From Chloroflexus aggregans DSM 9485 (GTDB lineage Bacteria > Chloroflexota > Chloroflexia > Chloroflexales > Chloroflexaceae): DNA of 64,000 bases. The stretch spans positions 3,547,353-3,611,352 of the forward strand of contig NC_011831.1 in assembly GCF_000021945.1 (NCBI RefSeq). The letters run 5' to 3'. This document shows positions 5,166-61,475 of the stretch, piece after piece. A program made the position numbers and the translations under genes. The stretch's first letter is position 1. Each line of letters opens with the position of its first letter. The notes under the pieces are model-generated. The model saw nothing but the letters and a program-made list of their open reading frames with translations. It was not told where the DNA came from and made no database searches.

Positions 5166-5401
5166 CTAACAGTAGAGGCGCAAAAGAAGCAAAGGCGCAG
5201 AGATTGTAAACGCAAAGGCGCAAAGGACGCAGAGAGCGCAGCATATGTAAACGCAAAGGCGCAAAGGACGCGAAGGACGCAGAGCGTTTTATAGGGATAA
5301 CCCCAAGTACGCTCTTGCCCAACCTAAAAACCTTCGCGTCCTTTGCGCTCGTGGCGCCTTTGCGTTGAGCGTCCTCTGCGTCTCGGATCGCTTTGCGCCT
5401 T
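5166..5401. repeat. Intergenic CGCAAAGGCGCAAAG-type repeat, copy 1 (left flank of fru island)
   Basis: The gap between lon and the DeoR-type gene holds no gene. It carries several degenerate direct copies of CGCAAAGGCGCAAAGGACGC, then a unique core containing TATAGGGATAACCCC (about 5288-5305), then the same repeats in inverted orientation (5331-5400). The two arms could pair into a long imperfect stem. The core and right arm at 5286-5365 closely match 11536-11614. No transposase or target duplication is visible. Confidence 0.85.
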
Positions 5402-23816: not shown

Positions 23817-26800
23817 CTAGCTTTGGGTGCGTAACTCCAACAATCGACCGCTACCGATCTGCTCAAATTGGTGGATGATGTGATCACCGCCTACCATCAC
23901 CTGTTTCAACACGCGATGCGGTATTGCGATTACGTCTAGTGGTGTGAGTGCGATAACAGTCGCTACCGGTAATGTGCCACGGATCAGTTCTACCTCGCCA
24001 CAAAATTCGGCCGGGCCAAGCCGCGCGACCAAGCGAACGTTCCCACGTGGGCCTTGTTCTGTCTCTTCTCGTCGTAAGACGGCTACTTGTCCGTCGGCAA
24101 TGATGTACAGATAGCCGTTAGGCCGACCTTGTCGGATCAGGATGTGGCGGGCCTCTACTGTTTTGTGGATAGCCGCTCGTGCGAGTTCTCGTAGTTGAGC
24201 ACGCGGTAGGTTGGCAAAGAGTGATACTCGCTCAAGTAACCGCATTCGCTTGAGAAGTTCTGCACCTTCAGCGGTGTGCGGTGCGGCCTCGTGTATCATT
24301 CGCTGCAGTTCACCCGCCGGTAAGTAAAGGAGCGTGCTCTCGATACTAGCCCGGTATTCGTAGTCGGTGATTTCTGGTCCTTGCAATTCGCCAAAGTAGT
24401 CGCCGCGGTGCAGCTCTTGGACCATATCACCATGGCGGGCGAGGATTTCGCCGGTTTCGATCACCCAAATCCCTCGTGGTGGCTCGCCGGTGCTTAAAAT
24501 GATCTCACCGGCGTGTACTCGTTGGCTGGTAAACGCCGCAGCTAATTCTTGTAGTTCGTGATCGTCGCACGTAGCAAATAGTTCGATCTGGCGTAGCAGT
24601 CTGATCCGGGCTTCACGTGCGTTCCCGAAGGTGTGCAAGATGTCATACGCCTTCACCATCTGCGCTAAGCAGTGTCGTTCGAGTGCTTCCCGTTCCGGCC
24701 ATGGCAATGCGTCATACGCAGCCACTAGTGCGCGATGGGCAAAGGTCCGACCGGCCAATTGTTCGAGGATCGTTACCGCATACTGTAAGACCTCGGCGTA
24801 CCGCGCTCCTTGCTCGTCGAGTGGAAGGCTCTGCACGGTTGGGCCGATCCGCACTTGATCGCGATCAAAAGTGATCTCCCAGTTTGCCGTCGCTGCCAAT
24901 ACGTCCATCCGGTCGTCGAGGGTTCGCGTGCGTTGGATACCGTAATTATTGCGCAAGAGGCGGTACAAACCAATGTACAAATGCCGAAAAGCATCTTGTA
25001 ACCGTACCGTCTCACCGGGTGCAGGCGTGAGCGGCCAGCTTAACCCACTCAGACTAACACTGCGCAAGGTGACGAGATGGGTACTCCATGCAGCGGCCCA
25101 CAGACCGGCCGCTACGATCAGGCTGACGAGTGCAAGCGGAGTGTTGCGCCACTCCGGTAGCAGTTCGAGTAGATAGCTCCCGATTTGGATAAGGATTCCT
25201 AGCCAGAGCAGCAGCCAGCTCCAAAAGAGACGGGTATCGCGCAAACTGATGAGCAGTGGCAATAGCAGTGCTTGACCGATCACTCCACTGTAGATAGGCA
25301 CGGCGGCGATTAATGCCCAGAGTGAACTATACTCTGGGTGAGCGATCCTGATCAGTTCGGCAGCAATGACTCCTAATGGAAAAGCTAGGGTCAGCAGTAA
25401 GGCACTGGCGATCAATTGGCTGCTGTTCTGTTGCTGTAAGTTGACATCAAGCAATGCGATGAATCCGGCAAACAAGAGCAAGGCGTACCCGGCAATCTCT
25501 AAGCCTGACCAGGCGCGCACGGCATCGGGGGCGATGAGGTAGCCGGCTTGCGCTATCATTTCAATAAGGCTGATGAGTAAGAAGCTGGCGAGGGCACGGC
25601 CGATCCACGCTCCTGCATAGTCACTTTGTAGATACCCTTGTACGATTACGGCTACCATCCACCATCCGGTCAACACGAGGCCGGTTTCCCAACCCACCCC
25701 AAACCGTAGCGGGAATAGTCCGCTCGTCAGCGCCAGTAGACCAAACGTGGTTGCGATCAGCAATGGGTTGCGCGTGTACCCGCGTCGTATCATCCAGTCG
25801 GCAGCGGCTCGTACCAACCCCCAACCGGCCAGGATGATACCGATAATCAAAGGGACGATCACCAGCCCAAAGATCAAGATTGCCAGCAGTTGTCCGAACC
25901 AGCTACTCGCCCAGAGTTCACCAACCATACTCGCAAATTGGCGTTGCCAGAAGAGGGTCGCCATCACGACCGCTACACCGGTATAGATTGCGCTCAATAG
26001 TCCGTACCCGGCAAAAATGCGCTCCTCCCGGTTCAACGGACTGCGTGATCGGATTTTTTGCCACAATGGTCCGCCAATAAATCCCAATGCACGATTGCGC
26101 AGGTTTGGCAAGCGTAAGGCGTCGACCAAGATGAAATAGCCGTCAAGTTCGAGTAGCGGGTTGAAGTTGAAGAGCGCAGTCAGGTACGAAGCGGTTGCAA
26201 TGCGACGCATCCATATGCCGCCTAACGTCTCTGGCGCTGCCCACGCAATGATCGCGGCCAGCGATCCGACGAGCAGGTCACATAGTGGCCCGGCCAACGA
26301 GACCAGCATACGGGCCGAACGCGGCGCCAACCATATGTCACTTGTATCAACGAAGGCGGCCGGCATCCCGAAGTAGAGCATAATCCCCGCTCGTCCGACC
26401 TGCCGACCAAAATGTTTAACGGCCAACCCATGCGCGATTTCGTGGAGTGTGAGCGTGATAAACAGCGCCATTCCCAACATCAACATATCGCCGGCAAGAT
26501 GTTCGTTGCTCACGAGATCACTACCACTGACTCCCGGCAAAAAGTAGCAGATGATACCGATAATCGTCAGCAGGCCAAGCACGATTGCAAAGAAACGGGT
26601 AAAGAACCAGCGTCCACCCCATCGGTACAGCAGATCGAACCATCTATCCACATGCTGTAGCTCAAAGCTACGGCCATGGGTGAAGCTCAACAGACGCTGC
26701 CCGATCCCTTCGACAGTTTGCTGTGCAAGATAGTGGCGTAAATGGCGATACACGCCGACCGATGTATCGGTGAGAAATCCTTGTGCGCGCAGGGTTTCTA

Positions 26801-27191
26801 CCAAGTCGGCAACCGGCAACAGTTGCTTAAAGCGCAGAAAGCCCATGGTGGCTAGTTGGGCAATGGTGCGCGTGCCATCCATTGCCTGCCACAACTCACG
26901 CTCGGCTGTGCTCAAGCGCAGGTAGTGACCGCTCGGGCTACGGAGTACGGTGATGGGCTGGTTATCCTCAAGTAACGTCTCTTCGATCACGTCACTCAGC
27001 CGTTGTGGCTTGTAGAGCGCCGGATCGGCGCGTTGACGTAAGATGCTCCATACCCCATACTCACCGTCCGGGTGAGTGACGAGTTGGTGTTTGATGTGTT
27101 GATAAATGCGACGATGTTGAGTAGGCGGTGTAGTGGTTTGCTGTTCTATAGCAGCCCAGAGCCGCCGCTGTGCTCGTAGAAGTTGTGTCAT
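23817..27191 (-). CDS. M50-family membrane metalloprotease with PqqD-like N-terminus and two cyclic-nucleotide-binding domains
   Basis: A 1124-residue membrane protein. Residues about 60-145 resemble a PqqD-like winged helix (ITVLRSPSGHYLRLSTAERELWQAM). A helix-rich region holds HEIAHG (250-255) and NFNPLLELDG (342-351), the zinc ligands of the M50/site-2-protease class. More hydrophobic helices extend to about 690. A soluble part ends in two cNMP-binding modules (about 880-990 and 1000-1110), each with the GEILARHGDMV/RGDYFGELQG-type roll. GGAG precedes the ATG. Putative peptide zinc metalloproteases of this type are known, but the substrate and ligand are unknown here. It stands alone between rbsR and the epimerase. 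Confidence 0.85.
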   Translation of the reverse strand: MTQLLRAQRRLWAAIEQQTTTPPTQHRRIYQHIKHQLVTHPDGEYGVWSILRQRADPALYKPQRLSDVIEETLLEDNQPITVLRSPSGHYLRLSTAERELWQAMDGTRTIAQLATMGFLRFKQLLPVADLVETLRAQGFLTDTSVGVYRHLRHYLAQQTVEGIGQRLLSFTHGRSFELQHVDRWFDLLYRWGGRWFFTRFFAIVLGLLTIIGIICYFLPGVSGSDLVSNEHLAGDMLMLGMALFITLTLHEIAHGLAVKHFGRQVGRAGIMLYFGMPAAFVDTSDIWLAPRSARMLVSLAGPLCDLLVGSLAAIIAWAAPETLGGIWMRRIATASYLTALFNFNPLLELDGYFILVDALRLPNLRNRALGFIGGPLWQKIRSRSPLNREERIFAGYGLLSAIYTGVAVVMATLFWQRQFASMVGELWASSWFGQLLAILIFGLVIVPLIIGIILAGWGLVRAAADWMIRRGYTRNPLLIATTFGLLALTSGLFPLRFGVGWETGLVLTGWWMVAVIVQGYLQSDYAGAWIGRALASFLLISLIEMIAQAGYLIAPDAVRAWSGLEIAGYALLLFAGFIALLDVNLQQQNSSQLIASALLLTLAFPLGVIAAELIRIAHPEYSSLWALIAAVPIYSGVIGQALLLPLLISLRDTRLFWSWLLLWLGILIQIGSYLLELLPEWRNTPLALVSLIVAAGLWAAAWSTHLVTLRSVSLSGLSWPLTPAPGETVRLQDAFRHLYIGLYRLLRNNYGIQRTRTLDDRMDVLAATANWEITFDRDQVRIGPTVQSLPLDEQGARYAEVLQYAVTILEQLAGRTFAHRALVAAYDALPWPEREALERHCLAQMVKAYDILHTFGNAREARIRLLRQIELFATCDDHELQELAAAFTSQRVHAGEIILSTGEPPRGIWVIETGEILARHGDMVQELHRGDYFGELQGPEITDYEYRASIESTLLYLPAGELQRMIHEAAPHTAEGAELLKRMRLLERVSLFANLPRAQLRELARAAIHKTVEARHILIRQGRPNGYLYIIADGQVAVLRREETEQGPRGNVRLVARLGPAEFCGEVELIRGTLPVATVIALTPLDVIAIPHRVLKQVMVGGDHIIHQFEQIGSGRLLELRTQS

Positions 27192-27305
27192 AAGAGCGCT
27201 CCGGCGGTCGTGTTGTGTCCGATGCCGGACGTGGCTGTCTCATCCGATCAACGCATCGAGTTGCCTTCTTTTTCATCTTAACAGACGTGTCTATAAGTGT
27301 ATCCA

Positions 27306-27334
27306 TTGACAATGCCTCAAATCACAGGTACGAT
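27306..27334 (+). promoter_or_regulatory. Promoter of the epimerase gene, placing the start codon at the predicted mRNA 5' end
   Basis: TTGACA (27306-27311), 17 nt, TACGAT (27329-27334). The ATG at 27341 is only 6 nt after the -10, so transcription would begin at or within the start codon. Confidence 0.8.
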
Positions 27335-27340
27335 GCTAGT

Positions 27341-28282
27341 ATGAGTAACAAACGTATTATCATCACCGGAGCAACCGGTCTAATCGGTCGCAAGTTAGTA
27401 GCCGAGTTGCGTGACGATTACCAGCTCGTGATCTTTAGCCGTAATCCCGATCGTGCTCGTGCGCTGTTGCCCGGTGCCGCCGATTACGTGGCCTGGCAGC
27501 CTGCGGAGCAGGGGCCATGGGCGGCAGCCATTGATGGTGCATGGGGCGTAGTGCATTTGGCCGGTGCACCGGTTGCGACCGGCTTGCTGGGTCAACGTTG
27601 GACACCGGAATACAAAGCGGAAATCCGCAATAGCCGGGTCATCGGTACACGTGGGATCGTCAACGCAATGGCTGCTGCACAGCAGCGTCCGTCGGTTTTT
27701 GTCTGTGCGTCGGCAGTAGGTTACTATGGCCCCTACCGCGATAGTACGCCGCTCGATGAGAATTCTCCTCCGGGCAAAGACTTTTTGGCGCAGGTGTGTG
27801 TAGCCTGGGAAGCCGAAGCAGCCAAGGCTGAAGCGTTGGGGGTGCGCACGGTTATGCTCCGCACCGGTCTGGTGCTCGATCCCGACTCGGGAGCGTTGCC
27901 GCAACTTATGCTGCCGTTTAAGCTGTTAACCGGCGGTCCGATTTTGCCGGGAACGCAAGTCTATCCGTGGATTCATCCGGCTGACGAGGTTGGTTTAATC
28001 CGCTTTGCGCTCGAAAATGAACAGGTCCGTGGTCCGCTGAATGCCTCCGCTCCCAAACCTCTCTCCAATCGCGATTTTGCCGCCGTGCTTGGGAAGGTGC
28101 TCGGTTCGCCGTCGTGGTTGCCGGTCCCTGAGTTTAGTTTGCGCATTGCCTTGGGTGAAATGGCCGATGTAGTCGTCTATGGTCAGAATGCTCTCCCACG
28201 CAAGGCGCTTAGTCTCGGCTATCAGTTTCACTTTACCGAGCTTGAGCCGGCGTTACGCGATCTGCTGAATTTGCCTCATTAA
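27341..28282 (+). CDS. TIGR01777-family NAD(P)-dependent epimerase (SulA/YfcH-like, DUF1731)
   Basis: Short-chain-dehydrogenase-like protein of 313 residues. The Rossmann motif is TGATGLIGRKLV at the N-terminus, the GVVHLAGAPV segment and the ASAVGYYGPY active-site tyrosine region are present, and the C-terminal DUF1731 part ends LEPALRDLL. A longer frame from 27215 is excluded because the promoter lies inside it. No Shine-Dalgarno is present and the -10 is 6 nt from the ATG, indicating a leaderless message. Cellular substrate is not known for the family. Confidence 0.88.
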   Translation: MSNKRIIITGATGLIGRKLVAELRDDYQLVIFSRNPDRARALLPGAADYVAWQPAEQGPWAAAIDGAWGVVHLAGAPVATGLLGQRWTPEYKAEIRNSRVIGTRGIVNAMAAAQQRPSVFVCASAVGYYGPYRDSTPLDENSPPGKDFLAQVCVAWEAEAAKAEALGVRTVMLRTGLVLDPDSGALPQLMLPFKLLTGGPILPGTQVYPWIHPADEVGLIRFALENEQVRGPLNASAPKPLSNRDFAAVLGKVLGSPSWLPVPEFSLRIALGEMADVVVYGQNALPRKALSLGYQFHFTELEPALRDLLNLPH

Positions 28283-28295
28283 TGCAGGGTGGCTC

Positions 28296-28312
28296 GCCCC
28301 ACTACGTGGGGC
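28296..28312 (+). terminator. Terminator hairpin after the epimerase gene
   Basis: A perfect 7-bp stem GCCCCAC/GTGGGGC with a 3-nt loop, followed by TTGCTCTTT, 13 nt past the stop codon. Confidence 0.7.
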
Positions 28313-28470
28313 TTGCTCTTTACCTTATGGCACTACACGTTGATTCGCTTATTACCGTACCTAACATCTCATCAACTTCTTACCTTGTTCTAACTAAATA
28401 TTAAAATCCGCAGCGCATGATAACCTCAGCGCAGAGCAGTTGCTACTGCTTGATGCAAAGGAGGTTCGGG

Positions 28471-29652
28471 ATGAATATTAATCGTTTGGCGTTGATCTTC
28501 GTCTTTTTGCTAGGCATTTTTATCGGTGTAGCAGGCGGTGGGGCGGCTGGCGGTGTCGCGGGGTATTTGGTTTCACGGCAGACCGCTGCCGAAGTTTCGG
28601 CGACAGTATCCGCGCTCAAGAGCCAACCGGTTACCACCAGTGCTGTATCACCGACTCAACCAACAACTGGATCGGCGACGGTTCCTGAGACCGTAGTCGT
28701 TAGTTTGTCCGATGCTATGGTGGAAGCGGTGAAGCGCGTCGCACCTGCGGTAGTGACGGTCACCGTCGAGAGTAGTACCGGTCGTGGGAGTGGCAGTGGT
28801 GTGATTATCCGCAATGACGGTTATATCGTCACTAATAATCACGTCGTTGATGGAGGACAGCGCTATTTCATTCTCTTTGCCGATGGTACTCGCCGGCAGG
28901 CTCGCTTGGTCGGTACCGATTCACTCAACGATATTGCCGTGCTAAAAGTTGATGGTGAAGTGCCCGGCGTGGCCCAGATCGGCGATTCGGCGGCATTACA
29001 GCCCGGCGAGACGGTGCTGGCTATCGGTAGCCCCCTCGGCAACTTCCGCAATACCGTTACCGCCGGTGTTGTGAGTGCGCTCAACCGTTCGGTGCCCGGT
29101 AGTGGTATGGAGGGCCTGATCCAAACCGACGCTGCGATCAATAGTGGAAACAGCGGCGGCCCGCTGATTAACCTGAAGGGTGAAGTAGTTGGTATTAACA
29201 CTATGGTCGTGCGCAACGATTTTGGCTTCGGTAGCAGCGCGCCGGTTGAAGGATTGGGATTTGCCGTGCCGAGCAGTATCTTCGCCAATGTAGCCGATCA
29301 GATCATTGCGACCGGTCAGGTGCGCTATCCCTTCCTCGGTATCACCTATCTGATGATCGATGGTGAAGTGGCGGCCCAGTATAATCTGCCCGTACAGAAT
29401 GGTGCCTTCATTAGCGCCGGTCTGAATGGTCAGTCGGCGGTGTTGCCTGATACCGCAGCAGCGAAAGCCGGTCTGCGCGAAGGCGATATCATTACGGCAG
29501 TCAATGGTCAACGGCTCGATGCCAATACGTCGTTGCGTCAGTTGCTGTTGCAGTACCGGCCCGGTGATACGGTTGAATTAACCATCCTCCGCGACGGCAA
29601 GGAGCAGAACGTGACAGTGACGTTGGGCGAACGTCCCAGCAATCTGCGATAA
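28471..29652 (+). CDS. HtrA/DegP-type serine protease with PDZ domain
   Basis: Membrane-anchored quality-control protease. An N-terminal hydrophobic anchor (LALIFVFLLGIFIGVAGG), a Thr/Ser/Pro-rich linker, a trypsin-like domain with the triad H124 (TNNHVVDG), D154 (NDIAVL) and S228 (GNSGGPL), and one C-terminal PDZ domain (about 300-390, GLREGDIITAVNGQ). AAAGGAGG gives a strong ribosome site for the ATG at 28471; a frame from 28417 lacks one. The active part is predicted outside the membrane. The stop codon is followed within 6 nt by seven tandem hairpin repeats. Confidence 0.93.
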   Translation: MNINRLALIFVFLLGIFIGVAGGGAAGGVAGYLVSRQTAAEVSATVSALKSQPVTTSAVSPTQPTTGSATVPETVVVSLSDAMVEAVKRVAPAVVTVTVESSTGRGSGSGVIIRNDGYIVTNNHVVDGGQRYFILFADGTRRQARLVGTDSLNDIAVLKVDGEVPGVAQIGDSAALQPGETVLAIGSPLGNFRNTVTAGVVSALNRSVPGSGMEGLIQTDAAINSGNSGGPLINLKGEVVGINTMVVRNDFGFGSSAPVEGLGFAVPSSIFANVADQIIATGQVRYPFLGITYLMIDGEVAAQYNLPVQNGAFISAGLNGQSAVLPDTAAAKAGLREGDIITAVNGQRLDANTSLRQLLLQYRPGDTVELTILRDGKEQNVTVTLGERPSNLR

Positions 29653-29658
29653 TGTAAA

Positions 29659-30015
29659 GCCGCACGGAGTGCGGCTCGCCTGCATCCTGGTGAAGATATG
29701 GAGTGGGAGCCGCACGGGGTGCGGCTCGCCTGCATCCTGGTGAAGATATGGAGTGGGAGCCGCACGGGGTGCGGCTCGCCTGCATCCTGGTGAAGATATG
29801 GAGTGGGAGCCGCACGGAGTGCGGCTCGCCTGCATCCTGGTGAAGATATGGAGTGGGAGCCGCACGGGGTGCGGCTCGCCTGCATCCTGGTGAAGATATG
29901 GAGTGGGAGCCGCACGGAGTGCGGCTCGCCTGCATCCTGGTGAAGATATGGAGTGGGAGCCGCACGGGGTGCGGCTCGCCTGCATCCTGGTGAAGATATG
30001 GAGTGGGAGCCGCAC
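29659..30015. repeat. Seven tandem 50-bp hairpin repeats plus a partial unit
   Basis: Units start at 29659, 29709, 29759, 29809, 29859, 29909 and 29959, with a seven-base remnant at 30009-30015. Each unit is identical except for one A/G position in the loop, and each carries a perfect 7-bp stem GCCGCAC/GTGCGGC with loop GGA or GGG. Loop variants in order: A,G,G,A,G,A,G. The array lies between the convergent htrA-like and Nudix genes. It is not CRISPR because the segments between hairpins do not vary. The remaining bases to 30074 hold nothing recognisable. Confidence 0.95.
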
Positions 30016-30074
30016 CGCCGTATGGCTCTAAACTTATCCCCTCGTTGGTCACCATGCATTGCCAACCAACCGGT

Positions 30075-30719
30075 TCACCGTCCCCACCCGGCCTGCCGCA
30101 GCCGAGCCACAAATTCACTGAGCAAGAGTGCAGTCGCTCCCCAGACTTTATAACCGTTCAACGCAAAGAACGGTACCCGCATCGGTATACCGTTCCGTTC
30201 CCAAATCTCTTCACGTATGGTGGCCGGATCGAACAGGGAAGAGAGTGGTACCGTAAAGACATGCTCGACCTCTTCCGGGTCGTGGTTTGGCACAAATCCC
30301 GCCGCATGAAAACCCACGATGGGTGTCAGATAATTGTTGCTAGGAGGGATGTAGAAGGTTGTGAGTGCCCCAAGCACCTCGATGTCGGTCGGATCAACAC
30401 CGATCTCTTCGTGCGCTTCGCGGAGCGCGGCTCCTACCGCACCATTGTCATCGGGATCGATGCCACCACCCGGTAGCGATACCTCACCGCGGTGGGTCGT
30501 CACTCGGCTCGAACGCACGGTCAGCGGGATGTATAGGTCGTTGTCGTGGGGAAACAGGAGCAGGAGCGCCGCCGACCGACGTGGAGTTATATCTGGTGGT
30601 GGCGTAAATGGACGCAGCGGTGTGCCATCGAGCCGGCGCAAAATCAGCAGTTCGTCGTGCGACGGCGGTGGCCCGGCAAGAGCCTGCCGAATGCGGTTGA
30701 TGTCTTCGTTCCAAGGCAT
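30075..30719 (-). CDS. Nudix hydrolase, NudL-like CoA pyrophosphatase
   Basis: 214-residue Nudix protein that probably cleaves CoA or its derivatives. The family-specific stretch RSSRVTTHRGEVSLPGGG leads into the Nudix box ending REAHEEIGV. As in NudL relatives, the box lacks the first glutamate of the general consensus. The UPF0035-type order, with a LPLTVRS-like segment ahead of the box, supports CoA pyrophosphatase over other Nudix types. The ribosome site is weak. It converges on the tandem hairpin array. The specific substrate is inferred. Confidence 0.82.
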   Translation of the reverse strand: MPWNEDINRIRQALAGPPPSHDELLILRRLDGTPLRPFTPPPDITPRRSAALLLLFPHDNDLYIPLTVRSSRVTTHRGEVSLPGGGIDPDDNGAVGAALREAHEEIGVDPTDIEVLGALTTFYIPPSNNYLTPIVGFHAAGFVPNHDPEEVEHVFTVPLSSLFDPATIREEIWERNGIPMRVPFFALNGYKVWGATALLLSEFVARLRQAGWGR

Positions 30720-30809
30720 AACATACTCTACACGTGCTTGTTTGCTCTATTGTACTGCGATTGTCTCAGGCGTGAAAATTATTTAGTATACCTAAACAGT
30801 TTTCTTAAC

Positions 30810-30838
30810 TTGCCGCGACCGCTCTTATTCGCTACAAT
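30810..30838 (+). promoter_or_regulatory. Promoter of the class III aminotransferase
   Basis: TTGCCG (30810-30815), 17 nt, TACAAT (30833-30838), about 40 nt before the GTG start. Confidence 0.7.
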
Positions 30839-30877
30839 CGAGTTATCGAGATCTACATCGCTATCGAGGAGGCATGT

Positions 30878-32227
30878 GTGAACGAATTGTTCGATCCGAT
30901 TCAGGCCGATCACGACTATCTCATCCATCCCTTAGCTCACCCGACGGCTCACCAACATCCTAAGGTCTGGGTCGCCGGGCGGGGCGCGATTGTGATCGAT
31001 GCTGAAGGCCGTGAGTACATCGACGGTCTCAGTGGGCTGTGGAATGTAAATGTTGGTCATGGTCGCATAGAGCTGGCCGAAGCTGCGTGCGCTCAGATGA
31101 AACAACTGGCGTATTATTCATCGTATGTCGGTTCCACCAATCTTCCCGCGATCCAGTTAGCGCAAAAGTTAAGCGAACTGTTCTACCCGAGCATTAACCA
31201 CTTCTTCTTCACCTCAGGCGGCGCCGAGAGCACCGAAAGCTCGTTCAAGACGGCCCGCTTCTATTGGAAGGCCGTCGGCAAACCGGAGAAAGTGAAGTTT
31301 ATTTCGCGGATGAAAGGGTACCACGGCGTTACCATGGCCGCGATGAGTGCTACCGGCCTCCCCGCCTACTGGCCGATGTTTGAGCCACGGGTGCCCGGGT
31401 TTATCCATATCGAGTCGCCCTACCCTTACCGCTTTGTCAATCCGACCCCCCACCTAAGCGATGGTGTGGCGGCAGCAAATCTGCTCGAAGAGGCGATCCT
31501 TCGCGAAGGGCCAGAAACCGTTGCTGCCTTCATTGCCGAACCGGTGCAGGGTGCCGGGGGCGTCATTCCACCCCAAGACGACTACTTCAAGCGGATTCGC
31601 GAGATTTGCGATTACTACGACGTGCTCCTCATCAGCGATGAGGTTATCACCGGTTTTGGACGTACCGGGCGGTGGTTTGGTTTGGAGCATTATGGGATCG
31701 AACCCGATATTGCCCAGTTTGCCAAAGGGATTACTTCAGGGTACATTCCACTCGGTGGTATCGGTGTCAGCGACCGCATCTACGAGGTGATCGAGACGGT
31801 CCCGCCCGAGAAACGGTGGATGCACGCCTTCACCTATTCCGGTCACCCGACCGCCTGTGCAGTAGCTCTGGCAAACATTGCGATCATCGAGCGCGAAGGG
31901 TTGGTACAGCGCGCCGCCGAAGTGGGCGATTACATGTTGCGCCGCCTCCAAGAATTGTACGCTTTACCGCATGTCGGCAATGTCCGCGGCAAAGGTATGA
32001 TGGCCGGCATCGAGCTGGTCGCCGATACCGCCACGAAGGAACCCTTCCCGCCCAGCGCCAATGTCGGTGTACGAGTTCAGAAAGCGATGACGGAACGCGG
32101 TCTCTTCACCCGTGTCGTTGGCGATACCATCTGTCTCGCCCCACCCCTCGTTACCACCTACGAACAGATTGACCGTATCGTCAGCATTATTGCCGATGCC
32201 ATCGAGGCGACCGTCGCCACTACATAA
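30878..32227 (+). CDS. Class III pyridoxal-phosphate aminotransferase (omega-amino acid type)
   Basis: 449-residue fold-type I transaminase moving a terminal amino group to pyruvate or another keto acid. Seen: DGLSGLWNVNVGHG near the N-terminus, FFTSGGAESTESSFK, the DEVITGFGRTGRWF aspartate region, and AKGITSGYIPLGG with the PLP lysine. The start is GTG at 30878 behind GAGGAGG; the nearby ATG at 30874 is out of frame. It converges on panC. A beta-alanine:pyruvate role would fit the pantothenate neighbours but is a guess; the family also holds taurine and diamine enzymes. Confidence 0.85.
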   Translation: MNELFDPIQADHDYLIHPLAHPTAHQHPKVWVAGRGAIVIDAEGREYIDGLSGLWNVNVGHGRIELAEAACAQMKQLAYYSSYVGSTNLPAIQLAQKLSELFYPSINHFFFTSGGAESTESSFKTARFYWKAVGKPEKVKFISRMKGYHGVTMAAMSATGLPAYWPMFEPRVPGFIHIESPYPYRFVNPTPHLSDGVAAANLLEEAILREGPETVAAFIAEPVQGAGGVIPPQDDYFKRIREICDYYDVLLISDEVITGFGRTGRWFGLEHYGIEPDIAQFAKGITSGYIPLGGIGVSDRIYEVIETVPPEKRWMHAFTYSGHPTACAVALANIAIIEREGLVQRAAEVGDYMLRRLQELYALPHVGNVRGKGMMAGIELVADTATKEPFPPSANVGVRVQKAMTERGLFTRVVGDTICLAPPLVTTYEQIDRIVSIIADAIEATVATT

Positions 32228-32242
32228 TCCCTCATTCCATTA

Positions 32243-32273
32243 CGGCTGTGCGCCAGGTGGCGGCGCACAGCCG
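32243..32273. terminator. Hairpin between the aminotransferase and panC
   Basis: A perfect 12-bp stem (32243-32254 with 32262-32273) and a 7-nt loop lie between the two convergent stop codons. No T tract follows on the plus strand. Confidence 0.7.
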
Positions 32274-32283
32274 TGCGCCGCCA

Positions 32284-33117
32284 CTACAATAACAACCAAT
32301 TGTCGATTAACCGGACCTGATCGAATCGAACCGCCATCGACAGCAATGCCCCTTCCGGTCCAATCTGATCCAGCTCACGTAATGTGTGTGGATGCGCAAC
32401 ACTAACGTATTCCGGTTTTGCCAACGGCTCTGTCGACAATACCTCACGCATCACCGCCCGTAGCACCTCACCGCTCCGCTCACCAGCAGCGTAGCGTTCG
32501 GCGGCCGCTCGTAAGGCGCGGTACAGCACCGGAGCCGCCGCTCGTTGCTCTGGGGTGAGATACACATTCCGACTACTCAGGGCCAATCCGTCCGGCTCGC
32601 GCACTGTTGGCACAATCACAATCTCGACCGGAATGTTCAGATCACGTACCATCTGTCGCACAACGACGGTCTGTTGAGCGTCCTTCTGCCCAAAATAGCT
32701 CTTGGTCGGCTGAATGATGTTAAACAATTTGCATACTACCGTTGCCACACCTCGGAAATGACCGGGGCGGGCCGCCCCTTCCAACACCTCGTCGGCGGCA
32801 GGCTGGATGACATACGTGCCGAAACCGGCCGGATACATCTCTTCGACGGTTGGGATGAATACCAGATCGACCCCGGCGGCCTCAAGTAGCGCCAGATCAC
32901 GCGCCGTGTCGCGCGGATAGCGGGCATAATCTTCGTGTGGGCCGAATTGGGTGGGATTAACAAAAATACTCACTGCCACCGCCGGGCATTCGGCGCGCGC
33001 CCGCTCGACGAGCGCCAAATGACCTTGGTGCAGATAGCCCATTGTCGGCACAAAACCTAGTTCGTCAAACGCCGCTCGGGCGCGGCGTGCTTCTGCTATC
33101 GTATGCACAACCTGCAT
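32284..33117 (-). CDS. panC: Pantothenate synthetase
   Basis: Joins pantoate and beta-alanine with ATP to make pantothenate. The HIGH-like motif is PTMGYLHQGHLALVERAR and the KMSKS-equivalent region is marked by FGQKDAQQ and LSSRNVYL. 277 residues is normal. It is downstream of panB with a 71-nt gap, forming a panBC unit on the minus strand. panD, the usual beta-alanine source, is not in the window. Confidence 0.95.
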   Translation of the reverse strand: MQVVHTIAEARRARAAFDELGFVPTMGYLHQGHLALVERARAECPAVAVSIFVNPTQFGPHEDYARYPRDTARDLALLEAAGVDLVFIPTVEEMYPAGFGTYVIQPAADEVLEGAARPGHFRGVATVVCKLFNIIQPTKSYFGQKDAQQTVVVRQMVRDLNIPVEIVIVPTVREPDGLALSSRNVYLTPEQRAAAPVLYRALRAAAERYAAGERSGEVLRAVMREVLSTEPLAKPEYVSVAHPHTLRELDQIGPEGALLSMAVRFDQVRLIDNWLLL

Positions 33118-33188
33118 AACATCTTCCTCTTGTGTGCCAATCGCTCACCGATCTGCGGCTGAGTGATGGTGACGCCGGCTGAACGTCC

Positions 33189-34028
33189 TCACGACTCTTC
33201 GAGATTGCCCAATGCTGCTGCCAATTCTGTCGGATCCATACGGCTGCTATGTTCAGGACCGGGAAATGTACCGGTACGCACATCATGCACGTATTGCGTC
33301 AGTGCTTCTCCGATAACCGTTGCCAGATCGGTGTAGCGACGGGCATGACGTGGCACAAAATCACTGTACAGCCCAAGTAAATCATGCCAAACCTGTACTT
33401 GACCACTACAACCGGCCCCGGCCCCGATCCCAATCGTCGGAATGCGGAGTCGTTCGGTAATTGCCTGTGCCAATTCGGCAGGCACCAGCTCAAGCACAAT
33501 TGCAAACGCGCCGGCCTCTTGTACGGCCAGCGCATCTTCCAGCAACTGCCGCGCCTCGTTGGCCCGTCGCCCTTGTACGCGCAACCCGATCTGATTGACC
33601 GCTTGCGGCGTAAAGCCGATATGCCCCATTACCGGAATACCTAAATGTACCAAACGGGCAATCGTCGGCGCAATATGCACTCCACCTTCCAGCTTCACCG
33701 CTTGCGCACCGGCTTCTTGCAACATCCGTCCGGCACTAATCACCGCCTGTTCTGGTGAAGCATACGTCAGAAATGGCAAATCACCGATGATCAGTGCATT
33801 CCGTGCGCCACGCACGACCGCGCGAGTATGGTGGATCATTTCGTCGAGAGTCACCGGTACCGTCGAATCGTGGCCCAACACTACCATCCCTAACGAGTCG
33901 CCGACCAGAATCATCGGAATCCCGGCGCGATCGGCGATCTGGGCCGATGTATAGTCATAGGCGGTGACCATCGGAATCCGCTCGCCGCGATCGCGCATCT
34001 GTTGAATATCCCGAATCGTTGTGCGCAT
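33189..34028 (-). CDS. panB: 3-methyl-2-oxobutanoate hydroxymethyltransferase
   Basis: Adds a hydroxymethyl group to alpha-ketoisovalerate in pantothenate synthesis. Typical segments are [41 protein letters not shown] and the [11 protein letters not shown] motif. 279 residues. GGAG precedes the ATG. It is the first gene of the panBC pair, transcribed from an extended -10 promoter upstream. Confidence 0.95.
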
Positions 34029-34077
34029 TGCCGGCTCCTTTTATCTTACATTCGTTACCGGTCCTTCCAGCTTAACG

Positions 34078-34086
34078 ATTGTAGCA
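34078..34086 (-). promoter_or_regulatory. Extended -10 promoter of panBC
   Basis: On the minus strand TGC-TACAAT gives an extended -10 (TGN then TACAAT). No convincing -35 is seen, as is usual for such promoters. Confidence 0.55.
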
Positions 34087-34157
34087 CGGAATAGTGCAAA
34101 AGTGGGGATGATCACTGGTGTATGGCTGAATAAAGTACTATCTATACTAAAAGATAT

Positions 34158-34186
34158 TTGACAAAATCATGTTATTCGCTTACGAT
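34158..34186 (+). promoter_or_regulatory. Promoter of the alpha/beta hydrolase gene
   Basis: TTGACA (34158-34163), 17 nt, TACGAT (34181-34186), the same -35, spacing and -10 as at the epimerase gene. Confidence 0.8.
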
Positions 34187-34220
34187 CTACCAAGTGTCGC
34201 TTCTCCTACATCTACATGTT

Positions 34221-35153
34221 ATGAAACTACATCCAACGATGGATATCCCATCTCATCTTGTTCCGTATGCTCGGCGTGTTGCGCTATCTCACTATGATAT
34301 TTTTTATTATGACGCCGGCTCAGCAACTGCACCCATCCTCCTTCTTATCCACGGTTTAGGTGATGAAGCCGATACGTGGCGTTCTATTATTCCCCAACTC
34401 GCCCGCCCCTACCGTGTGATTGCGCCCGATCTCCCCGGCTTTGGCCGCAGTTCTGGTCCTACCAAGGGCTACAGCCTCACGTTCTTTGCCCGCACTATGG
34501 CTGAATTCATCGGGAAGCTGGGGTTGCCATCGGTAACGCTGGTTGGGCATTCGCTCGGTGCGATGATTGCCCAACGTCTAAGTATCGGTCTACCCGGTGT
34601 CGTCCAACAGCAAATTCTGATCGGCGGTTGCCTGCCGATCAAGCGGCATTTCCCGCGCCTGGAGCAATGGACGCTTCTCTTGCCGGGGATCGGTGAGTTG
34701 GTGTTAGCCGGGATGCAACGCTCGCAGGAGTTAGCCTTTCTCAGTCTGCAACCCTTCTACGCGAATCTTTATGCGTTACCTGCACGTGAGCAGCGCTTTT
34801 TACGTCGGCGAGTGTGGGCGCGGATTCACCACCCCATCCAACGTCGGGCTACCCTCTCGGCGTTGCGCTGGCTGGCAATCGATGCCGTTTTCCGCTGTCA
34901 TCGCTACCTTGATCTGGTGAACCAATGCCCAACGCCAACCGTACTGATTGCCGGCGAACACGACTTGATCGTCGATGGCGAAATGATCGAAGCAACTGAG
35001 GTGTTGTTAGAGCAACATGCGCTTTATATTCATCTCGAGCGCTGTGGTCATATGCCGCATCAAGAACGGCCCGATCAGATCGTTCATCTGATTGCCGAAT
35101 TGGTACCATCACCGCTTCACGACGAATACCAATATCTCCATTCTGATAGCTAG
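34221..35153 (+). CDS. Alpha/beta hydrolase
   Basis: 310-residue hydrolase of the Ser-Asp-His class: LLLIHGLGDEADTW oxyanion region, TLVGHSLGAMIAQR nucleophile elbow, an aspartate in AGEHDLIVDGE and a C-terminal histidine in CGHMPHQERP. No signal peptide. The promoter at 34158-34186 rules out the longest frame (from 34158); ATG at 34221 and 34239 both remain possible and neither has a clear ribosome site. Substrate unknown; the form is that of an esterase or C-C hydrolase. Confidence 0.8.
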   Translation: MKLHPTMDIPSHLVPYARRVALSHYDIFYYDAGSATAPILLLIHGLGDEADTWRSIIPQLARPYRVIAPDLPGFGRSSGPTKGYSLTFFARTMAEFIGKLGLPSVTLVGHSLGAMIAQRLSIGLPGVVQQQILIGGCLPIKRHFPRLEQWTLLLPGIGELVLAGMQRSQELAFLSLQPFYANLYALPAREQRFLRRRVWARIHHPIQRRATLSALRWLAIDAVFRCHRYLDLVNQCPTPTVLIAGEHDLIVDGEMIEATEVLLEQHALYIHLERCGHMPHQERPDQIVHLIAELVPSPLHDEYQYLHSDS

Positions 35154-35223
35154 GCGTGTTGGCGAGCATAAGGGGTTCGATACGAAGGGGCGCAAATGGA
35201 TTGCGCCCCTTTGGATCGTTGGT

Positions 35224-36219
35224 TTATGATGATGTGACGTGTTCGCCGGCTGTCACCGTTCGTGCCCGCACGAGCGATGCGATGATCGATACGGCGATGA
35301 TCGTCGCCACTACTCCGAGTGAGATGCCGGTCGGAATCTTCCAGCTTATCCCGATGAGCGCTGCACTCAGGTCGGGTAAGAGCATTTTTACCCCCACAAA
35401 GACCAGCACTACCGATAACCCCAACTTGAGGTAGTGGAACAGATGCACAACCCCGGCGAGGATAAAGTAGAGCGCACGCAAGCCCAAAATCGCAAATACG
35501 TTTGATGTGTAGACGATAAACGGTTCTTGGGTCACGGCAAAAATGGCCGGGATTGAGTCCACGGCGAAGATCAGGTCGGTAGTTTCGACCATCACCAAGA
35601 CGAACAACAACGGTGTCGCCATCAAGACACCGTTTTGGCGGGTGAGAAACTTTTGTCCGTCGTAGCGATCGCTAATCGGGACAAAGCGGCGGAACATCTG
35701 CACGACCGGATTCTTCTCTGGCTCAACTTGCTCGTCTTGCGAGCGCGCCATGCGGATCCCGGTGAAGATCAAGAAGGCACCGAATATCCAAATAATCCAG
35801 TGGAATTGCTTGATCAAGGCAGCGCCGGCCAAGATCATCGTTCCGCGCATAATGAGTGCGCCGAGAATTCCCCAGAACAGCACACGATGTTGGTATTTAG
35901 CCGGTACTGCAAAATACGAGAAGATCAGCACGAAGACGAAGATATTATCAACGCTCAGCGCTTTTTCTATCAGATAGCCGGTTAAGAACGCTAGCCCCGC
36001 ATCACTCGCACTGAGACTACTCCCCGGCATGATCTGATCCCAGAAGACGTATAGACCGGCGTTGAACAACAGGGCCAGGGCAATCCAGACGACACTCCAA
36101 ATGGCTGCTTCACGCAACGAGACTTCGTGTGCTTCACGGTGAAACACGCCTAAGTCAATTGCGAGCATCGCGAGGACAAACAGATTAAATCCAATCCAAA
36201 CCCATAACGTGTCGAACAT
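35224..36219 (-). CDS. TerC/Alx-family integral membrane protein, manganese exporter type
   Basis: 331 residues with seven to nine hydrophobic helices and the family acidic motifs DLGVFHREAHEVSL, EKALSVDNIFVFVLIF and VETTDLIFAVDSIPAIFAV. TerC/Alx proteins export or buffer Mn2+. GAGGAG precedes the ATG. A yybP-ykoY Mn2+ riboswitch with its own terminator stands in the 5' leader, which independently supports a manganese role. Substrate choice is inferred from both lines. Confidence 0.92.
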   Translation of the reverse strand: MFDTLWVWIGFNLFVLAMLAIDLGVFHREAHEVSLREAAIWSVVWIALALLFNAGLYVFWDQIMPGSSLSASDAGLAFLTGYLIEKALSVDNIFVFVLIFSYFAVPAKYQHRVLFWGILGALIMRGTMILAGAALIKQFHWIIWIFGAFLIFTGIRMARSQDEQVEPEKNPVVQMFRRFVPISDRYDGQKFLTRQNGVLMATPLLFVLVMVETTDLIFAVDSIPAIFAVTQEPFIVYTSNVFAILGLRALYFILAGVVHLFHYLKLGLSVVLVFVGVKMLLPDLSAALIGISWKIPTGISLGVVATIIAVSIIASLVRARTVTAGEHVTSS

Positions 36220-49959: not shown

Positions 49960-50436
49960 AAGCTGCTGACGCAAAGGCGCAAAGATCGCAAAGGGTGTTA
50001 ACGCAAAGGCGCAGAGGGCGCAAAGGCGCAAAGGATGCTGACGTACAGAACACCACCCGTCGGGGCACGGCGGTGCCGTGCCCCCACTGCTAATGCAAAG
50101 GGTGCTGACGCAAAGGACGTTAACGCAAAGGCGCAAAGCACGCAAAGGCGCAAAGGTGTTGACGCACAGAGCACCACCCGTAGGGGCACTGCGGTGCCGT
50201 GCCCCCACTGCTAATACAAAGGGTGCTAACGCAAAGGCCGTTAACGCAAAGGCGCAAAGATCGCAAAGATCGCAAAGGGTGCTGACGCAAAGGGTGCTGA
50301 CGCGAAGGACGCTAACGCAAAGGCGCAGAGGGCGCAAAGGCGCAAAGGATGTTGACGTACAGGCCGCCACCCGTAGGGGCACGGCGGTGCCGTGCCCTCA
50401 CTGCTAACGCAAAGGACGCGAAGGGTGTGTTTTCGT
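49960..50436. repeat. Composite intergenic repeat block with three strong hairpins
   Basis: The gap after the ANTAR gene contains many copies of AACGCAAAGGCGCAAAG and three copies of a hairpin module ACCCGTAGGGGCAC...GTGCCCC. The hairpins are at 50062-50084, 50183-50205 and 50376-50398, each a 10-bp stem with loop GGT (copies 2 and 3 have one imperfect pair). The block ends in GAAGGGTGTGTTTTCGT at 50420-50436, also seen near 61381 and 61453. No gene is supported; open frames here are repeat artefacts. Confidence 0.9.
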
Positions 50437-59508: not shown

Positions 59509-61284
59509 ATGATATACGCCATGAAGCGTTTCCTAATAGTTCTCGTGGCCCTGTGGGGATTGGTAACATTTGCCGGATGTCGGGTCGAGTTAACCAATCC
59601 AGAAAATACGCCGGTCGTGATGGCAACACCGACGCCGATAGTAACGCTACCCACCGAGCGAATACTACGGATTGGATTGGTGGCCGAACCTCCTGATCTA
59701 TTGCCGTACCACAGTACTCCAACTGATGAGCGGTTGAGTGGGGCGATTACCGAGTTGATCTTTCCTTCACCACTTTTACCGGTGAATTTTACGCTGCAAC
59801 CTACCGGTGTATTAACTGACTTGCCCAGTTTGGTCAACGGTGGTGTCGTTACAACAACGGTGACCGTTTTTCGTGATGCATTGGGCCAGATTACCGATAC
59901 ACCGACTGAACAGACCGATGAAGTAACCCAAGTTAGTGTGACTTTTCATTGGAACGCTGAACTGCGTTGGTCTGATGGTACACCGGTGACGGCTGCCGAT
60001 TCGGTCTTTGCCTACGAGCTAGCACAGAGCGCCAATCTCGGTCAAGCGGCTGCCAGTCGGTTGGCGATGATTGCCCGCTATGAGCAAGTTGATGAGCATA
60101 CGACCCGTGCTGTGCTCAATCCTGATGTTACCGATCCGGCCTATCTGACCAGTTTCTGGACGCCACTACCTCGTCATTTGCTGAGCAAGGTCGATCCGAA
60201 ACAAATCTGGCAAAGTGATTTTGCACGCCGTCCTGTCGGCTATGGCCCTTATATGATCCGCAGTTTTGAGGGCGGTTCGTTAGAGTTAGTGCGTAATCCC
60301 TATTACACCGGGCCGAAAGCTCCATTTGATACGATACTCTTCGTGTTTCGTAACGATCCGGCGCAGTTGATCGAATTGGTCAACAGTGGCAGCCTCGATC
60401 TTGTCTTCATTGAGCAGCCGATGCCGGAACTCTTAACCAGCCTATTGCAGAGCGATAACCGTGGGTTTCAGGTCAGCACATCACCGAACCCAATTTGGGA
60501 GCATCTCGATTTCAACCTTGATGTACCGCTGCTGCAAGATATTCGTGTGCGGCGAGCGATTGCGTATGCGATTAACCGCCCGTTGCTCGTGGAGCAGTTG
60601 TTAGGTGGGAAGAGTAACGTCCTCGAGAGCTGGATATTGCCCGGTCAGCTTGGGTATCCACCGCTCGATCAGATTACGCGCTACCCGTATAATCCCGATG
60701 AGGCACGTCGTCTGCTTGATGAAGCAAAGTTAGTCGACACCGATGGGGATGGTTGGCGGGAGTATGAAGGTTTGCCGTTGTTACTTTCGTTGGTAACAAG
60801 CGCCAACTCGCCGCTACGTCAAGCAGTCGCCGAGCGGATTGCCAACGATCTGGCACAGGTCGGGATTCAAGTTGAAGTGACGTCGTTGCCGGTGAGCGAG
60901 TTGTATAGTGTCGATGGCCCACTATACCGGCGCACCTTCCAACTGGCGTTGTTTGGTTGGATTGCCGGGCCACACCCTCGTGGTTGGGAGCTGTGGAGCT
61001 GTGCCGGTGTGCCGGGCGAGGCGAACAATTGGACGGGCAATAATTTTGCGGGCTGGTGTTTCTTTGAGGCGAATGAGGCGATTAATACGGCAACGACGGC
61101 GCTTGATCTAGAAACACAAAAGGCGGCGTATTTACGCCAACAGCAGTTGTTTACCCAAGAGTTGCCGGTGCTGCCGCTCTTTCAGCGGATTGATGTGCTC
61201 GTGGCGCGTGAGGGTTTGTCGGGTTGGCGCCTTGATCCGATTGCACCGTTTACGTGGAACATTAGCGAGTGGCAGCTTCGGTAA
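59509..61284 (+). CDS. ABC transporter substrate-binding lipoprotein, family 5 (peptide/nickel type)
   Basis: 591 residues with a signal peptide ending in a lipobox (LVTFAGC) about residue 24 and a short linker. The SBP family 5 domain contains FHWNAELRWSDGTPVTAADSVFAYELA, RPVGYGPYMIRSFEGGSLELVRNPYYTG and VRRAIAYAINRPLLVEQL, close to the family patterns. An oligopeptide is the likely ligand. No permease or ATPase gene is adjacent, so partners are elsewhere. The ATG at 59521 (MKRFLIV) is an alternative start. It is followed by an intergenic repeat. Confidence 0.9.
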   Translation: MIYAMKRFLIVLVALWGLVTFAGCRVELTNPENTPVVMATPTPIVTLPTERILRIGLVAEPPDLLPYHSTPTDERLSGAITELIFPSPLLPVNFTLQPTGVLTDLPSLVNGGVVTTTVTVFRDALGQITDTPTEQTDEVTQVSVTFHWNAELRWSDGTPVTAADSVFAYELAQSANLGQAAASRLAMIARYEQVDEHTTRAVLNPDVTDPAYLTSFWTPLPRHLLSKVDPKQIWQSDFARRPVGYGPYMIRSFEGGSLELVRNPYYTGPKAPFDTILFVFRNDPAQLIELVNSGSLDLVFIEQPMPELLTSLLQSDNRGFQVSTSPNPIWEHLDFNLDVPLLQDIRVRRAIAYAINRPLLVEQLLGGKSNVLESWILPGQLGYPPLDQITRYPYNPDEARRLLDEAKLVDTDGDGWREYEGLPLLLSLVTSANSPLRQAVAERIANDLAQVGIQVEVTSLPVSELYSVDGPLYRRTFQLALFGWIAGPHPRGWELWSCAGVPGEANNWTGNNFAGWCFFEANEAINTATTALDLETQKAAYLRQQQLFTQELPVLPLFQRIDVLVAREGLSGWRLDPIAPFTWNISEWQLR

Positions 61285-61475
61285 CGCAAAGACGCAAAGG
61301 GCGCAAAGGCGCGAAGGGGGTAACGCAAAGGCGCAAAGGGCGCAAAGGCGCAAAGGGTTAACGCAAAGGCGCGAAGGCGCGAAGGATGTGTTTTCGTTGC
61401 GGCGTTTGCGCGTCGAACAGATATGCCTCAGCGGGTTGGCGTTGTAGGTTGTGAAGGGTGTGTTTTCTTTGCTCC
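61285..61475. repeat. CGCAAAGGCGCAAAG repeat block between the binding protein and MurT
   Basis: Units of AACGCAAAGGCGCAAAGGGC and variants fill about 61285-61380, then GAAGG(A/G)TGTGTTTTC(G/T)T appears at 61381-61397 and 61453-61469, the same ending as the 50.4-kb block. The site is between two convergent genes. No gene is supported. Confidence 0.85.

Follow-up and report, generated by a model that had tools for sequence, protein, structure and literature searches.

How did a run of seven near-identical hairpins come to fill the junction between two convergent genes in Chloroflexus aggregans DSM 9485? We analysed a 64,000-nucleotide stretch of this genome (NC_011831.1, positions 3,547,353 to 3,611,352; hereafter the window), in which a tandem array of 50-bp units separates a gene encoding an HtrA-type protease (htrA) from a Nudix hydrolase gene. 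The array probably began at the htrA–Nudix site as a doublet of a palindrome resembling the GTAG-tagged repetitive extragenic palindromes (REPs), and was expanded to seven units by slippage or unequal exchange. Tandem Repeats Finder (TRF), which called the array at 29658–30015 with a period of 50, 7.2 copies and 98% matches, and an alignment of the units confirmed the description given by an earlier sequence-only reading, namely seven 50-bp units differing by one A/G loop position. The full units occupy 29659–30008 (starts at 29659 + 50i) and are identical except at unit position 10, which is A in units 1, 4 and 6 and G in units 2, 3, 5 and 7. Each comprises a 21-bp palindrome and a 29-nt spacer. 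The hairpin has a 3-nt loop and a 9-bp stem (8 bp in unit 1), correcting the 7 bp first assigned to it. Predicted RNA folding energies of single units were −22.0 and −19.1 kcal/mol, with both strands folding, and adjacent units were also predicted to be able to pair mutually. Hairpin matches with ≤3 mismatches on both strands of the window numbered 13, whereas shuffled sequence gave 0.05 on average.

The stem starts with the sixth nucleotide past the htrA stop codon (29650–29652), at 29658. At the other end, unit 7 runs into a degenerate eighth palindrome (30007–30028), which closes the array and leaves it with a palindrome at both its start and its end. All seven spacers are identical, and a clustered regularly interspaced short palindromic repeat (CRISPR) array was rejected because the repeats lack differing spacers. 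We class the feature as a REP-like tandem array, closest in kind to the GTAG-tagged REPs, with the tag in partial form: GTAA, a variant of GTAG, stands outside unit 1 on its htrA side (29654–29657, plus strand), the internal units carry none, and the Nudix edge is doubtful, with a possible decayed tag at 30029–30033 (minus strand) where a related genome, G005, has GTAG at the equivalent point.

Sought elsewhere in the source genome (G000), the complete array was found at this single place, whereas its palindrome is dispersed in tens of copies. The family pattern GAGCCGCAC-N4-GTGCGGCTC (≤1 mismatch), which excludes the window units on account of their 3-nt loop, occurred at 62 places in G000, 92 in G002, 78 in G005 and 29 in G007; among the remaining Chloroflexus genomes it occurred once in G004 and not at all in G001, G003 and G006. 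A reversed control pattern gave no place in any of the eight genomes of the genus. Across the order, the pattern was present in 9 of 80 genomes and never in more than one copy outside the genus: besides the four copy-rich genomes, 5 of the other 76 had one copy and 71 had none. In loci picked regardless of tag, 26 of 61 distinct hairpins were flanked by GTAG or GTAA on one or both sides, making 27 tagged sides of 122 against an expectation, calculated by hand, of about 1. Gene context was assigned to array clusters with a crude open reading frame (ORF) call, single hairpins being left out because the relaxed pattern caught chance hairpins, many of them within ORFs. It could be determined for 34 of 51 clusters (15 convergent, 17 unidirectional and 2 divergent), the others lying inside an ORF (9) or at a locus edge (8). 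The window array belongs to a broader repeat family and is not a device particular to htrA.

An exact-match search of public genomes with the tagged pattern gave at least 80 stretches, among them 58 of Chloroflexus type and 22 from Bacteroidota. These 22 Bacteroidota loci (for example L093, L105, L119, L139, L146, L150 and L168) hold the exact 25-base tagged Chloroflexus palindrome, several copies being fully symmetrical.

Comparison of the htrA–Nudix site between relatives revealed seven copies in G000, at least two in G005, one in G007 and none in G002 or G004. At the Nudix site of G005, two palindromes lie 55 bp apart, followed by the end of the contig; no htrA orthologue was found in this genome, an absence for which contig breaks may account. 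The G000 and G005 spacers appear related in alignment. G006 carries an unrelated hairpin at the junction, and G001 and G003 have a different sequence downstream of htrA. Read by eye, the sequence beside the hairpin after htrA in G007 (L033) seems to lie on the strand opposite to that of its counterpart in G005 (L041), as though a short stretch had been flipped.

Copy number also varied at orthologous loci elsewhere. A doublet with 54-bp spacing in G002 (L104) corresponds to 18 hairpins with the same spacing in G000 (L071), where 16 of 17 units are identical. Further differences were 6 versus 3, 6 versus 4 and 5 versus 2 between G002 and G005, and 5 versus 2 between G002 and G007; other orthologous sets had equal numbers, such as two copies each or one each. 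These examples come from at least 102 locus pairs, many of which stand for one and the same locus, so they illustrate the variation and give no totals. Within the window, a different hairpin occupies 2565–2620, where G002 (L204) has a six-copy and G005 (L100) a four-copy palindrome array. The near identity of the units, the graded copy numbers at the htrA–Nudix site and the doublet matched by 18 hairpins support the earlier suggestion of recent amplification at a slippage-prone hairpin. Tandem repeats are prone to assembly error, and the true number of units might differ from seven, perhaps being one, but we consider such an artefact highly improbable: the genome is one closed contig of 4,684,931 bp, the array is merely ~360 bp long, the A/G variants tell units apart and similar arrays occur in other assemblies.

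Other arrays of the same palindrome in G000 have periods such as 54 (the 18 hairpins of L071), 29, 31, 40/48, 51, 78 and 87, the spacers and periods being specific to each locus. Tags also differ in placement, with several arrays tagged only at the outer edge, several untagged under a strict rule and one, L075, tagged at nearly every unit. Counted by eye in 464 kb of sequence, made up of 20 spread stretches and the window, a palindrome with a stem of ≥8 was present in 5 of 19 non-overlapping arrays with a TRF score of ≥100, and a further two seem to derive from the hairpin studied here. G000 further contains arrays of truncated palindromes, with periods of 14, 23 and 24, in which an intact palindrome forms the end. 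Truncated-palindrome arrays at L081, L082, L085 and L194 (G000) have periods of 13–24 and up to ~50 copies; in the first three, an intact tagged palindrome stands at the end, as though the array had grown out of that palindrome's arm.

The tags allowed neighbouring hairpins to be oriented in sister loci, comprising the 58 Chloroflexus-type loci of the exact scan together with L204 and L205, deduplicated (64 clusters). Among 64 neighbouring pairs, 32 were head-to-tail, none was head-to-head or tail-to-tail, 3 included a double-tagged member and 29 were uninformative; the loci had been found via a tag, which should leave the direction of the partner unbiased. The 9 tagged pairs in G000, mainly from one array, were likewise all head-to-tail. 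L071, and perhaps the window array, carries outward-facing tags at its two ends, which had hinted at an origin from an inverted REP doublet forming a hairpin (REPIN); this origin found no support, 32 of 32 informative sister pairs being head-to-tail. Median spacing fell within 47–59 bp in 26 of 36 multi-copy sister clusters and in 5 of 9 clusters in G000. Some Chloroflexus genomes might harbour a separate kind of palindromic element whose unit of spread is a head-to-tail doublet, with hairpins about five helical turns (47–59 bp) apart, and which then grows into arrays, its spacing reflecting a dedicated enzyme or DNA-binding protein for hairpin pairs in one orientation, unlike REPINs; we regard this as doubtful.

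We also considered units formed from a palindrome and a copied piece of local flank. Of 43 orientable clusters, 11 had a spacer that matched the flank upstream and 14 had one that matched the flank downstream (rank ≤0.05), some of these matches being trivial, such as the window array's own partial unit. This was rejected as a general rule, as it fits only some clusters; because flank matches are confined to these, tandem duplication of local sequence covers only part of the doublets.

In the mechanism that we favour, at least two palindromes would have ended up ~50 bp apart at the htrA–Nudix site, as in the doublet retained in G005. Such a doublet would constitute direct repeats with hairpin-forming ends, in which replication slippage or unequal exchange between palindromes would gain or lose one palindrome plus spacer per event, and the hairpin-forming stems would aid multiplication of the palindrome and its 29-nt spacer to seven units. 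Exchange between palindromes would produce arrays bounded by palindromes with one locus-specific spacer, matching both the window array and L071. The distribution of A and G among the units fits copying of blocks larger than one unit. We infer the slippage or exchange step itself, its direction, with the doublet first, and its recency. Several points weigh against this account. The tag at the window array is a degenerate GTAA on one edge and doubtful on the other. Matches between spacer and flank, at 11 upstream and 14 downstream of 43 clusters, leave most doublets unexplained. The assemblies of G005 and G007 are drafts, and their repeat copy numbers may be wrong. Finally, the exact palindrome was found within ~1.5 kb (less at contig ends) of none of the 26 Y1 transposase loci detected in the genus.

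These loci, spread over 6 of the 8 genomes, bear on whether a Y1 transposase of the REP-associated tyrosine transposase (RAYT) type acts on the palindrome to generate copies in situ, making growth of the arrays enzymatic rather than a matter of slippage. The presence of Y1 genes, the tags on 27 of 122 hairpin sides and the preferred spacing of 47–59 bp would all suit such an enzyme. However, 0 of 26 Y1 loci have the exact palindrome nearby, and the palindromes beside the RAYT-like genes are different ones. The palindrome studied here is thus linked to no mobilising enzyme, and we judge enzymatic growth unlikely. One Y1 locus in G005 has two weak partial palindrome matches. The RAYT-like genes (187–188 amino acids) lie in L203 (G001), L198 (G002) and L200 (G005), beside GCGGCAGCCATGCTGCCGC in long repeats in G001 and TGCGGCAG...CTGCCGCA in G002 and G005; these are possible Chloroflexus REPtrons. 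Y1 genes of 226–229 amino acids (L197, L199 and L201) adjoin repeats, whose translation we take to resemble that of a CRISPR array.

The position of the array, 6 nt past the htrA stop and between convergent genes, and its folding on both strands could also suit a device under selection, in which the hairpins would together form a terminator for both directions or a 3′-end shield for htrA and Nudix, with a strength set by the number of units. One hairpin is retained in G007, and an unrelated hairpin occupies the same junction in G006. Yet a scan of 24000–36000, which does list a terminator-like site at 28296–28312, found none within 29658–30033, and in an intrinsic-terminator test the array hairpins lacked a T-run. 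Because G002 and G004 have no palindrome at the junction, htrA does not depend on the array or its hairpin in every member of the genus, and the same palindrome is found at many unrelated gene ends. The multi-stem terminator or 3′ protection proposed by the sequence-only reading thus found little support, and a selected device seems to us quite unlikely. Individual hairpins may still have a passive effect on the 3′ ends of the htrA and Nudix transcripts, shaping or protecting them, which the effect proposed for REPs makes plausible; the window array itself is most likely a by-product.

Like the GTAG REPs, the Chloroflexus family is a short GC-rich palindrome present in many copies, with GTAG or GTAA at one end of many of them. 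It also shares a location mostly past gene ends, tandem clusters that include flanking DNA and a Chloroflexi host. The palindrome falls within the length and abundance of GTAG REPs (20–40 bp, many per genome), and its array clusters share their extragenic, convergent or unidirectional location. It differs in lacking RAYT flanking, at 0 of 26 Y1 loci. The published description of the GTAG REPs lists T. roseum (Chloroflexi) with clustered GTAG-23 elements, gives a RAYT gene flanked by REPs as typical, not obligatory, for the GTAG REP superfamily, and records a proposed effect of REPs on RNA 3′ ends (PMC3733652). REPs are not mentioned in the available parts of the T. roseum genome paper. REPINs, as REP doublets forming hairpins, and tandem REP/REPIN clusters are described for Pseudomonas fluorescens SBW25 (Bertels and Rainey 2011, PMC3116915). 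The SBW25 elements and the Chloroflexus family have in common a preferred pair spacing and tandem arrays that take in flanking sequence; unlike SBW25 REPINs, the Chloroflexus palindrome flanks no RAYT among the loci examined. REPINs are inverted pairs, and the inverted arrangement of REPINs and bacterial interspersed mosaic elements (BIMEs) was not found in Chloroflexus, where 0 of 64 pairs were opposed and 32 head-to-tail. Bacterial minisatellites, or variable number tandem repeat loci, consist of near-identical tandem units whose copy number varies between relatives; unlike these, the Chloroflexus loci share one dispersed palindrome with locus-specific spacers. A description of the Chloroflexus family was not found in the open-licence literature searched, which is no proof of absence.

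These findings place a REP-like doublet in one species at the same locus as an 18-hairpin array in another, and reveal a head-to-tail pattern that departs from most published REP dimers. With its many parallel loci, the genus makes the transition from palindrome to minisatellite open to testing, and such arrays should not be taken as gene-specific regulatory devices.

ORF and domain searches bore out the convergent setting of the array. The htrA gene (28471–29652, plus strand) encodes a serine protease with trypsin and PDZ domains, its start being placed at the ATG after AGGAGG (28471) rather than at 28417 as in the program's ORF list; its convergent partner, the Nudix hydrolase gene, lies at 30075–30719 on the minus strand. 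All three minus-strand frames are open through the array, as previously noted. Composition shuffles of the unit were likewise open in 32.5% of 5000 cases, and no Pfam family reached the cut-off for the minus-strand ORFs; for these reasons the open frames carry no weight and minus-strand coding was rejected. An Rfam search gave three matches, every one far under the gathering score, and the plasmid collection searched gave no match. Elsewhere in the window, a period-121 array at 49987–50289 includes a palindrome of a second GTAG-tagged family of G000, with a stem of 10 (GGGGCACGGC...GCCGTGCCCC). Short-unit CGCAAAGG-like arrays occur at 5176–5284, 49969–50357 and 61280–61385, and also beside palindromes at other loci.
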